Shown: one piece after another, positions 40,227 through 44,798 of the stretch
Layout: each line of letters opens with the position of its first letter
Numbering within the stretch: the stretch's first letter is position 1
NCBI GenBank assembly: GCA_903821635.1
Contig: CAIJLV010000166.1
Span: 1 to 64,000 of the forward strand
DNA: 64,000 nt
Direction: 5' to 3'
Origin: an uncultured Verrucomicrobiota bacterium
GTDB taxonomy: Bacteria; Verrucomicrobiota; Verrucomicrobiia; Limisphaerales; UBA9464
Made by a program: the position numbers and the translations under genes
Notes under the pieces: model-generated
The model's input: only the letters and a program-made list of their open reading frames with translations
Database searches by the model: none
What the model was told of the DNA's origin: nothing

Positions 40227-40676
<450 letters not shown>

Positions 40677-40711
40677 GTTTTCCAAGAAACCCTTCAAACG
40701 ACATTCATCCC

Positions 40712-42115
40712 ATGAAGAAGCTGTTATTTATTCTAACCTGCGCCTTGTTGGCGTTTACCAGTCTGGACGTGCGTGCCGCCGATCCGAGTTTGGAGGAGCG
40801 CATTGCTGACCTTGAATCGTATGTGAACAACGCGGCCCGGGCGACGGCCGGGAATACGAACGTCACCTCGAAGATCGCCGGTCCAGGACCGGGTCACAAC
40901 GCGTGGCAGATGACTTCCACAGCGCTGGTTCTGTTCATGACTCTGCCCGGCTTGGCGCTGTTTTACGGCGGTTTGGTGCGCAAAAAGAATGTCCTGTCCG
41001 TGCTCGCACAGTGCATGGGTATCGCGGGTTTGGTGACGATCCTCTGGTGGGCGATCGGTTACAGCCTATCTTTCGGCGCTGGCAACGCCTTCATCGGCGA
41101 TGCCGCCTACGCCTTCTTCAAAGGCGTCGAACCCGGCAATGTGGGGGCTGGCTACTACTGGATCAGTGATTCGATGTGGGCGATGTTCCAGTTGACCTTC
41201 GCGATCATCACGCCGGCGCTCATCATCGGCGCCATCGCTGAGCGCATGAAGTTTGTTGCGGTGTTGCTGTTTGTTACCCTGTGGATGTTCGCGGTTTACT
41301 TCCCCTTTGCCCACATGGTGTGGTCGACCACGGGTTTCATGTGCGGTCCGTTGAATCCGGGAGCCACGATCAAGGCGCTTGATTTTGCAGGTGGCACCGT
41401 GGTGCACATGACCTCGGGTTGGAGTGCTTTGGTGCTCTGCATCATCTTGGGTAAGCGCAAAGGGTTCGGCAAAGAGCCGATGACGCCGCACTCGATGACG
41501 CTCTGCATGGTGGGCACCGGCATGCTCTGGGTCGGCTGGTATGGTTTCAACGCCGGTTCGGCACTCGGGGCGGATGCGATTGCTTCCAACGCCTTCACCA
41601 CGACGACTCTGGCGGCCGCAGTAGCTGGTTTTGTCTGGGCGATGACCGAATGGCTCACCCGGGGCAAACCCAGCGTGTTGGGCTTCTGCTCGGGGATTGT
41701 TGCCGGCCTCGTCGTGATCACTCCGGCGTGCGGTTTTGTTACCGCGCAGTCCGCGGTCATTATGGGCATCCTGGCGGGCATCGTGCCTTACCTCGCCTGC
41801 TCTTACTTAAAGAAGATGATCGGTTATGATGACGCGTTGGACACCTTCGGCGTCCACGGAATCGGCGGCACCTTGGGGGCGATCTTGACCGGCATCTTTG
41901 CCGATGAAAAAGCCAACTCGGTGGTCGCGGGTCTGAAGGCCGGTCTACTCGGTGCGCAAATCAAAGCCGTGCTGTTGACGGTCGTTTGGAGCGTGGTGGC
42001 GACGACCATCATCGCTTTCATCGTCAAGGCCGTCGTTGGCTTGCGTCCGACCGAGGAAGTCGAAATTGCTGGTCTCGACCTCGCCGAACATGGCGAAGAA
42101 GGATACCACTCTTGA
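40712..42115 (+). CDS. amtB: Ammonium transporter AmtB
   Basis: A 467-residue Amt channel with signal peptide (MKKLLFILTCALLAFTS), a short periplasmic coiled segment (about 27-60), and 11 membrane helices. Recognisable segments are LPGLALFYGGLVRKKN, FPFAHMVWS, FAGGTVVHMTSGWSALVL, GWYGFNAGSA and DTFGVHGIGGTLGAILTGIF, containing the twin histidines of the pore. It imports ammonium and is gated by the PII protein encoded upstream. Confidence 0.97.
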   Translation: MKKLLFILTCALLAFTSLDVRAADPSLEERIADLESYVNNAARATAGNTNVTSKIAGPGPGHNAWQMTSTALVLFMTLPGLALFYGGLVRKKNVLSVLAQCMGIAGLVTILWWAIGYSLSFGAGNAFIGDAAYAFFKGVEPGNVGAGYYWISDSMWAMFQLTFAIITPALIIGAIAERMKFVAVLLFVTLWMFAVYFPFAHMVWSTTGFMCGPLNPGATIKALDFAGGTVVHMTSGWSALVLCIILGKRKGFGKEPMTPHSMTLCMVGTGMLWVGWYGFNAGSALGADAIASNAFTTTTLAAAVAGFVWAMTEWLTRGKPSVLGFCSGIVAGLVVITPACGFVTAQSAVIMGILAGIVPYLACSYLKKMIGYDDALDTFGVHGIGGTLGAILTGIFADEKANSVVAGLKAGLLGAQIKAVLLTVVWSVVATTIIAFIVKAVVGLRPTEEVEIAGLDLAEHGEEGYHS

Positions 42116-42203: not shown

Positions 42204-43040
42204 TTAGAGCACTTCGATGAGCAGTGCGGTGGTATTGTCCCGGCCACTGTTGGCGATGGATTCGCTCACCAAACGTTGGGCGGGATTGGTGCTCGGAAAA
42301 GGGCCCGGGGTGCGGATCAGATCGTCGAGGGCGCTGTTGTAGAGTCCGTCGGTCAGCCCATCGGAGCAGAGCAAAAACCGGTCGCCCGGTTCGTAGGCTA
42401 CCGCGCCCACCTGTGGTTCCACGAATTGGTTGGAGCCGCCCAGTGACTTCTGGAGCACGTTACGGCGCGGGTGGGTGCGGGCTTCGCGCTCGTTGAGCTG
42501 GCCGTTGCGGAAAAGCCAGCCGACGTAGGTGTCGTCGTTGCTAAGCTGCTTGAGGCCACCGGCGGCGGGCAGGTAGTAAAGCCGACTGTCACCGATGTGC
42601 CCGAAATACATCCAAGTGGGGGTAAACCAACAGAGCGTAAGCGTGGTTTCCATGCCGCGACACTCCTCGTAGCTGTTACCCACGTAAGCGAGTGCCCGAT
42701 GAATCTGGCTGAACAGCTCCGCCAGGACATCGGAAGCCCCGGACGAAAGTCCTCGCGCCGCCTGCTTGAACGAATGGGGCAAAAGAGTGGTGATTTTTTC
42801 CACCGCGATCCGGCTGGCGAATTCCCCCGCCTTGGCGCCCCCCATGCCATCGCACACCGCAAAGGCAAAATCAGTGGGGGCTAAGGGGGCGTCTCCCAAT
42901 TTGCCGAGGCGATTCGCTTCTTGAGCGTTGAAGCGGAGGGCGAGGAACGAGTCCTCGTTGTTAGGCCGGACCTTGCCCTTGTCGGTCCAGCCAAACCATC
43001 TCAGGGAGCTGGCCGTGGATTCTTCGGGAGGCGCGTCCAT
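42204..43040 (-). CDS. PP2C-type serine/threonine phosphatase
   Basis: A 278-residue metal-dependent phosphatase. All PP2C motifs are intact: NNEDSF, AVCDGMGGAKAGE, FGHIGDSRLYYL, LLCSDGLTDGL and SGRDNTTALLIEV. It is cytoplasmic, without membrane or sensor domain, as in PstP/PrpC-type soluble forms. The ATG at 43040 follows the stop of the kinase-like gene by only one base, so the two are one unit. Being inside the nitrogen island suggests, but does not show, a role in that pathway. Confidence 0.92.
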   Translation of the reverse strand: MDAPPEESTASSLRWFGWTDKGKVRPNNEDSFLALRFNAQEANRLGKLGDAPLAPTDFAFAVCDGMGGAKAGEFASRIAVEKITTLLPHSFKQAARGLSSGASDVLAELFSQIHRALAYVGNSYEECRGMETTLTLCWFTPTWMYFGHIGDSRLYYLPAAGGLKQLSNDDTYVGWLFRNGQLNEREARTHPRRNVLQKSLGGSNQFVEPQVGAVAYEPGDRFLLCSDGLTDGLYNSALDDLIRTPGPFPSTNPAQRLVSESIANSGRDNTTALLIEVL

Positions 43041-43041
43041 A

Positions 43042-43434
43042 TCAGGGCAGTGGCTTGAAGCCGGGCAGCAGGGTTGCAAACTCAAAATCGATCAGGCAGA
43101 AGCGGCCATCCGTCTGGCGGTAGGTGACATTACGCATATCGGCGTCGTCATGGCGCACTCCGAAGGGTTCCAATTCAGCAAACAATTCCCGCGTCCGCGC
43201 CGCGTCCAAGTGTTCCACGCGGGAGCCGCAATTGGTGGTCACGATTTGAAGCTTTTCAGGATCTGCCGCGAGGAGTTTGGGCACGAAATTGCAGCCCACG
43301 GCGGCGAGGTGACGCAGAATTTGGACTTCGTTGTCGAATCGCTTCTGTGCGTCTGTGCCGTGGTAGGTTTTGAACACCCGGCCATCGAAGCCGAGGTAAA
43401 CCGTGGCGCGGAGAGTATCCTTAACTTTCAGCAT
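43042..43434 (-). CDS. Minimal kinase-like protein
   Basis: A 130-residue protein that keeps the core of the protein-kinase fold in order: VFKTY (lysine 22), NEVQIL (glutamate 36 of helix C), RHDDADMRNVTY (His95, Asp97, Asn102 with the exact HxDx4N spacing) and CLIDFEF (Asp116). It is far shorter than a typical kinase (250+) and resembles KdkA/InaA-type small-molecule or LPS kinases reduced to the essentials. No glycine-rich loop is obvious. The phosphatase gene follows one base after its stop. It may be an active minimal kinase, a small-molecule kinase, or a degenerate binding module. Confidence 0.75.
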   Translation of the reverse strand: MLKVKDTLRATVYLGFDGRVFKTYHGTDAQKRFDNEVQILRHLAAVGCNFVPKLLAADPEKLQIVTTNCGSRVEHLDAARTRELFAELEPFGVRHDDADMRNVTYRQTDGRFCLIDFEFATLLPGFKPLP

Positions 43435-43748
43435 TTTAGGAGGCAGCGGCTAAAAGAGGCTGTAACGAGGCGGTCACAAATTTCAACTATGCTGTTTCAG
43501 AGTGGCCGGTTTTGGTCAGTTAATGAGCGGAATTATTCACCATGCACAAATGGATGCATAAAATGATGATTCGCCGGCAGCCCTTCGGAAAATTTCCGTT
43601 CCCTCATTTCCCCCGTATTTTCGGGCATAAAAGCTCGTTCTTGCTTCCGAAAAGTCACCGTGCATTCTTCGCCGCCGAAGCGGCATCTTGCGTGCTCTCG
43701 ATTCATTCCGCATGAGGAACGAATCAAAAAATTCCTCCATTCACATCC
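43435..43748. promoter_or_regulatory. Divergent control region of the kinase gene and GSII
   Basis: A 314-base gap, A+T-richer than its surroundings. It contains an ATGCA-N8-TGCAT inverted repeat (43542-43559) that loosely resembles an NtrC half-site pair with altered spacing, and the sigma-54-like site described separately. No open frame in it is convincing. Confidence 0.45.
43681..43696 (+). promoter_or_regulatory. Weak sigma-54-like site upstream of GSII
   Basis: CGGCATCTTGCGTGCT keeps the invariant GG and GC elements at the correct spacing but departs from TGGCAC-N5-TTGCW at three positions. Its -12 half (GTGCT) equals that of the glnK promoter. It lies 53 bases before the glutamine synthetase start. 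Confidence 0.4.
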
Positions 43749-44798
43749 ATGGCGAAATATAAACTGGAATACATTTGGCTCGATGGCTACGAGCCCGTCC
43801 CCAACCTCCGCGGCAAGACCCAGGTCAAGGAGTTTGCCAAGTTCCCGAAGCTGGAAGAACTCCCGCTGTGGGGTTTTGACGGCAGTTCTACCCGGCAGGC
43901 TGAAGGCCGGAGTTCCGACTGCATTCTGAAGCCGGTGGCGGTCTATCCTGACCCGACCAAGAAGAATGGCGTGCTCGTTTTGAGCGAAGTGATGTTGCCG
44001 GATGGCACTCCTCATCCCACGAACGCGCGCGCCACCATCTTGGATGACCCCGGCGCTTGGTTTGGCTTCGAGCAGGAGTATTTCCTTTATCAGGACGGAA
44101 AACCCTTGGGCTTCCCCGAGTCAGGCTTCCCCTATCCGCAGGGTGAATACTACACCGGGGTCGGCTACAAGAACGTCGGCGACCTCGCCCGCGAGATCGT
44201 GGACACGCATCTTGATCTCTGTCTTGACGCCGGCATCAACCACGAAGGCATCAACGCCGAAGTGGCCAAGGGACAATGGGAATTCCAAGTTTTCGGCAAA
44301 GGCTCAAAAAGCGCCGCTGACCAGGTCTGGGTCGCCCGTTACCTGCTCATTCGCCTGTGCGAAAAATATCAAGTGGACGTGAACTTCCACTGCAAGCCGC
44401 TGGGCAAGGACGTGGATTGGAACGGCTCGGGCATGCATTCCAATTTTTCGACGACCCACATGCGGGAAGTGGGCGGTAAGGAATACTTCGAGTCGTTGAT
44501 GGCGGCGTTCGACAAATATAAGAACGAGCATATTGCCGTCTATGGACCGGACAATCATCTCCGACTAACCGGACTCCACGAAACGCAGTCGATTGACAAG
44601 TTCAACTACGGCATCGCCAACCGCGGCGCCTCCATCCGGGTGCCGCACAGCTTCGTCAACAACGGTTACAAGGGCTACTTGGAAGATCGCCGCCCGAACT
44701 CCCAAGGCGATCCCTACAAGATCGCCAGCCGTATCCTGCAGACGATCGCGACAGTGCCGCTGCCGGCTGCGCCCGCCAAGAAAGCGGGTAAGAAGTAA
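43749..44798 (+). CDS. glnII: Glutamine synthetase, type II (eukaryotic-like)
   Basis: A 349-residue GSII enzyme joining ammonia to glutamate with ATP. The motifs follow the eukaryotic/rhizobial form, not the ~470-residue [51 protein letters not shown], and the ATP-site block [13 protein letters not shown] followed by [11 protein letters not shown] short Lys/Ala tail is extra. GSII lacks the adenylylation tyrosine, so control would be transcriptional or through the neighbouring PII and perhaps kinase/phosphatase proteins. It is the natural end point for ammonium brought in by AmtB. Confidence 0.96.

Follow-up and report, generated by a model that had tools for sequence, protein, structure and literature searches.

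A half-size kinase-like protein paired with a PP2C phosphatase as a candidate switch for one subtype of type II glutamine synthetase

What might a kinase-like protein of half the usual size be doing between an ammonium transporter and a glutamine synthetase? Glutamine synthetase is the main entry of ammonium into metabolism, and for the type I form (GSI) a dedicated enzyme, GlnE, is well established as a means of covalent control. In the window analysed here, a stretch of 64,000 nucleotides, the gene for a 130-residue kinase-like protein that we call KIN (43042..43434, minus strand) is followed by that for a 278-residue PP2C-type Ser/Thr protein phosphatase (42204..43040, minus strand), with the TGA of KIN at 43044-43042 and the ATG of the phosphatase at 43040-43038, leaving a gap of one base. 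The pair sits between the plus-strand genes for PII (GlnB/GlnK-type, 40338..40676) and the ammonium transporter AmtB (40712..42115), which together span 40338-42115, and a plus-strand gene for a type II glutamine synthetase (GSII, 349 residues, 43749..44798) that diverges from KIN; Pfam and NCBIfam identify all three flanking genes. The original prediction saw in the two proteins a writer/eraser pair, placed so as to offer an alternative control of nitrogen assimilation, and both the one-base spacing and the flanks that it described are borne out. In the divergent region between KIN and GSII (43435..43748), promoter-like matches showed no excess over shuffled sequence, and the count of sigma-54 sites was below chance expectation.

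The AlphaFold2 model of KIN is a confident one (mean pLDDT 93.7, pTM 0.86). It runs from an N-lobe of five strands and helix C through a short helix to the catalytic loop, the DFE region and the end of the chain, 14 residues past D116; no helix is modelled after residue 86, and none follows the metal-binding motif. Structure prediction, which had been suggested as a check for an ATP site, returned a kinase fold. The catalytic residues stand where they had been placed (K22, E36, H95-x-D97-x4-N102, D116) and are invariant in 157 of 157 sequences, namely the window's and 156 relatives from its order and from elsewhere in the class, as are R101, T104, Y105 and E118; for the six catalytic residues this invariance holds down to 45% identity. 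All the residues that mark an active kinase at the level of the fold (catalytic Lys, Glu, HxDxxxxN and metal-binding Asp) are found in every one of the 157. As modelled, KIN is a kinase fold with every catalytic residue, minus the lobe to which a substrate would normally bind. The absence of these C-lobe helices, through which ordinary kinases bind their substrates, would suit a catalytically dead adaptor that places the phosphatase on GSII; however, six catalytic residues invariant in 157 sequences are hard to explain without catalysis, and we give an adaptor role next to no chance. KIN would instead be an active minimal protein kinase, able to bind ATP and transfer phosphate.

The shortness of KIN is not a truncation artefact, because its 142 unfused relatives measure 124-171 residues (median 134); the half-size chain is genuine. 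KIN is present in 140 of the 293 genomes of the window's order at 51-84% identity, the window itself excluded. Among 388 genomes of the phylum it was found in 78 genomes of one class, with a single weak match outside it; as far as the phylum goes, KIN is in essence a family of that class. On the record of these relatives, KIN is a real, conserved family, far beyond chance. Our searches covered the phylum, a plasmid collection, which held no match, and IMG/VR, in which a single contig (L275) carries a KIN::PP2C fusion beside GSII. That contig is filed as viral, and genes that by eye resemble ribonucleotide reductase lie next to the fusion and GSII; it is more likely a bacterial contig misfiled as viral than a viral one.

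Which known kinases does KIN resemble? Sequence search against solved structures gave no meaningful match, and the fold search alone gave relatives. Foldseek ranked the RNA kinase ArkI first (E 3e-7), and the nearest folds were ArkI, Rio2, Bud32/PRPK and other kinases, with a VIA-align Z of about 12 over 112-125 residues. The Pfam family APH (aminoglycoside/choline phosphotransferase, PF01636), with which KIN shares the HxDxxxxN motif, scored 30.9 bits against a gathering score of 23.2 and was matched by all 46 aligned members at E <= 0.01; the Bud32/KEOPS kinase model (TIGR03724; 20.1 bits, NCBIfam cut-off 125) and, for the window protein, the Kdo/WaaP kinase model (PF06293; 20.0 bits, Pfam gathering score 21.3) fell below threshold, as did models of other specific families. 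These matches would suit a small-molecule or RNA kinase of the APH or ArkI kind, and the characterised archaeal RNA 2'-kinase ArkI also has DFE, along with an HGQ triplet and C-terminal helices bearing a YKR motif (PMC9095486). In KIN, however, neither the HGQ triplet nor the C-terminal helices with the YKR motif of ArkI (COG2112) are found, and HxD is invariant. KIN has the compact lobes of ArkI, Rio2 and Bud32, but at 130 residues, versus at least 171 in the solved chains, it ends without their C-terminal helices, and unlike them it is tied to a PP2C phosphatase and to GSII. Likewise, the full C-lobe of APH, with the substrate pocket that follows the metal-binding Asp, is absent from the KIN model: the chain stops where the APH substrate lobe or the C-terminal helices of ArkI would start. 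Given also that KIN is paired and fused with PP2C, a family of phosphoprotein phosphatases, a small molecule or an RNA seems to us a quite improbable substrate.

The phosphatase accompanies KIN at nearly every locus. The genome collection yielded 303 KIN-related stretches, the best 80 of which were taken as the first locus set; in that set PP2C lies directly downstream of KIN in 71 of 72 testable loci, and elsewhere in the class it follows KIN at 68 of 76. At 14 loci the two are one open reading frame of 398-417 residues, with a further fusion in L275, and the fusions are spread over several genera of different families. The window phosphatase, which scores 65.1 bits with the Pfam model PP2C_2 (versus 24), has its metal-binding motifs NNED, DGMGG, GDSR, SDGL and GRDN all intact, and these motifs are kept in 143 relatives. 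Among solved structures PstP scores best, with cyanobacterial phosphatases slightly behind, and the Stp1/IreP equivalog (NF033484) gives 181.4 bits, below the NCBIfam cut-off of 230. Constant pairing, fusion and the conservation of the PP2C motifs are, at the level of sequence, strong evidence that KIN and PP2C function together, and the writer/eraser coupling originally proposed is strongly supported by these same counts. A kinase gene adjoining a PP2C gene is also seen in the operons of Hanks-type kinases with Stp1 or PstP. In contrast to those kinases, KIN has no HRD, DFG, activation segment, APE motif or C-lobe helices (the window protein has HDD and DFE), carries no sensor domain and is linked to a metabolic enzyme.

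If the pair acts on proteins of nitrogen metabolism, which neighbour is its most plausible target? In those of the first 80 loci that had enough flank, GSII lies divergently upstream of KIN in 51 of 60; for the window's order the same set has AmtB downstream in 37 of 60 loci (about 62%) and PII in 38 of 60 (about 63%), and the six outer window genes are kept at only 0-1 of 37 loci. Beyond the order but within the class, KIN has GSII close by at 63 of 76 loci, AmtB at 3 of 76 and PII at 2 of 76. The pair thus does not lie mostly far from nitrogen genes, and the predicted link to nitrogen assimilation survives through GSII, the constant partner; the part of it that rested on PII and AmtB has to be narrowed, as these are regular neighbours of KIN in the window's order only and hardly ever in other parts of the class. 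We therefore gave up the idea of KIN-PP2C as part of a general nitrogen island, PII and AmtB not being neighbours outside the order.

Since PphA, a PP2C, dephosphorylates PII in cyanobacteria, the main rival target is Ser49 in the T-loop of PII. Cyanobacterial PII is phosphorylated on this residue and dephosphorylated by PphA, and its kinase, long unidentified, now has a candidate in SpkB (PMC4285133, PMC10651672). KIN and PP2C could act on PII as in some of these organisms, in which case GSII and AmtB would merely be co-regulated neighbours. The window PII has the T-loop YRGS(49)EY(51). Each of the 48 KIN genomes tested has a PII, a count confined to KIN genomes, so that co-occurrence speaks neither for nor against PII. 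Ser49 and Tyr51 do not vary among the 82 copies read from KIN-bearing genomes (49/49 and 33/33), and PII and AmtB adjoin the pair in some 63% of the loci of the order. Outside the order, however, PII almost disappears from the vicinity of KIN while GSII stays, the presence of KIN follows the subtype of GSII, and the window genome has GlnD as well as Tyr51, so that another modifier of PII is probable. What the locus shares with the cyanobacterial system is a PP2C in nitrogen control and a PII with Ser49; what sets it apart is that GSII is the constant partner and that a short atypical kinase is fused or adjacent to the phosphatase. We consider PII a possible but unlikely target. Separately, one KIN-bearing genome has four tandem PII genes within 2 kb (G391, C1:3191348-3193186).

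KIN stays associated with GSII where genes have been rearranged, where the whole unit has been duplicated and where KIN and PP2C have fused, as they have repeatedly. In one family of the class KIN, PP2C and GSII all lie on one strand, and the linkage is thus kept in more than one arrangement. One genome (G646) has a pair of KIN::PP2C genes, both next to a GSII of their own, and these GSII are only 48% identical to each other; another (G088) has two KIN genes, each adjoining a GSII.

In two genera of the class, KIN abuts a gene for the magnesium transporter MgtE (L211 877-2671; L205 8690-10458; L208 7172-8987; also L209 and L213), and MgtE_N, CBS and MgtE domains were found in all three of the KIN-adjoining transporters tested. 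This neighbour, together with the relaxed specificity that bacterial Ser/Thr kinases often have (PMC10651672), would be in keeping with a KIN that phosphorylates some other protein or proteins, such as PP2C itself or a regulator, and alters GSII activity indirectly. Even where KIN has moved next to MgtE, however, the phosphatase gene has remained beside GSII in 7 of 8 genomes, and it is GSII whose presence tracks that of KIN; a different protein as the target is, in our judgement, distinctly unlikely.

How closely KIN follows GSII can be read across genomes. Among the 388 phylum genomes, KIN and the window-type GSII are held by the same 78 genomes, all in the class, and only 8 have this GSII without KIN, every one of them outside the class (Fisher p 2e-71, unadjusted for ancestry). 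Because shared ancestry and adjacency explain part of the co-occurrence, such p-values are not independent tests; more weight is due to genomes in which KIN and GSII lie apart yet are both present, and to near-complete genomes of the class that miss both, since one assembly gap can remove adjacent genes together. Within the window's order, KIN is found in 131 of 135 genomes with the window-type GSII; KIN occurs without a detected GSII in 6 genomes (5 of them at most 87% complete), and the reverse is seen in 4. In another 31 genomes of the order the GSII match is a weaker one, and 28 of these are without KIN; the other 3 have it, with weak matches, one of which is a contig-edge fragment. Most of the KIN-less weaker GSII among those listed are 57-62% identical to the window GSII and form a distinct subtype. 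From the 131 of 135 versus the 28 genomes without KIN, it follows that KIN is tied to a subtype of GSII and not to GSII generally. Of the two genes whose co-occurrence with the pair was proposed at the outset as a check, GSII passes; AmtB is seldom a neighbour of KIN outside the order.

Genomes with the second GSII subtype, which belong to the same order (G001, G048, G075 and others) or elsewhere to the phylum, are without KIN, and neither KIN nor PP2C was seen beside it in the seven loci read (L220-L226, outside the class). Rhizobial GSII is mostly 76-80% identical to that of the window, and no KIN gene is annotated beside it. In one Rhizobium locus a small DUF2735 gene (L244, 3306-3515) lies divergently upstream of GSII, at the position of KIN; this could be GstI, an inhibitor of glnII translation. 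When linked and unlinked GSII were compared, no Ser or Thr was conserved in the KIN-linked set and missing from all unlinked sequences. The clearest separating position is R328, which is invariant in 130 KIN-linked GSII and differs in rhizobial GSII and in the other subtype read. The failure to find such a Ser or Thr weighs against GSII as the target of KIN, as do the rhizobial GSII with no KIN beside them, the plasmid collection with no KIN match and the 6 genomes of the order with KIN but no detected GSII.

The GSII of the window had been described as free of adenylylation control, and this fits the genome, a draft of 87% completeness in which no GlnE match was found. GSI exceeded the family cut-off in 2 of 48 KIN genomes and in 3 of 8 KIN-less genomes of the class tested. 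Strong GlnE matches (E < 1e-40) were confined to these five genomes with GSI over the cut-off, 2 of them KIN genomes, and the weaker matches elsewhere probably come from GlnD, which has a related nucleotidyltransferase domain.

Near-exclusive co-occurrence and usual adjacency suggest that KIN-PP2C is probably an undescribed on/off switch of GSII. The reading that we favour, and think reasonably probable from comparison of sequences, is that an active KIN and PP2C make up a writer/eraser cycle reserved for a single GSII subtype, taking the place that adenylylation by GlnE has for GSI. KIN would phosphorylate a Ser or Thr of GSII and PP2C, as the paired phosphatase, would reverse this; by analogy with GlnE, phosphorylation may lower GSII activity when ammonium is plentiful. 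As with GlnE and GSI in enterobacteria and actinobacteria, this would be a dedicated covalent control of the cell's glutamine synthetase; in contrast to it, the proposed modification is phosphorylation, the enzymes are unrelated and the target is GSII. Given that KIN has no sensor domain, the signal probably enters elsewhere: via GSII, by its conformation or its ligand state, via PP2C or, in the window's order, via the PII encoded alongside. We also lean, if only slightly, towards the broader view that, throughout the class, one GSII subtype is reversibly phosphorylated by a half-size kinase and its PP2C partner, the kinase dispensing with the usual substrate lobe.

The literature searched holds no dedicated writer/eraser pair for a bacterial GSII, and no earlier report of the KIN-PP2C-GSII combination, of the very small kinase or of its tie to GSII. 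Measured against that literature, the novelty lies in how the parts are combined, in the size of the kinase and in its tie to GSII, the folds of the parts being already known. A confirmed switch would bear on which kinases partner PP2C phosphatases in bacterial nitrogen control, and a kinase of 130 residues would help to show how small a part of the kinase fold suffices. If true, the class-wide trio would be an independent solution to the problem that GlnE solves for GSI, and one that offers a clear substrate to test.
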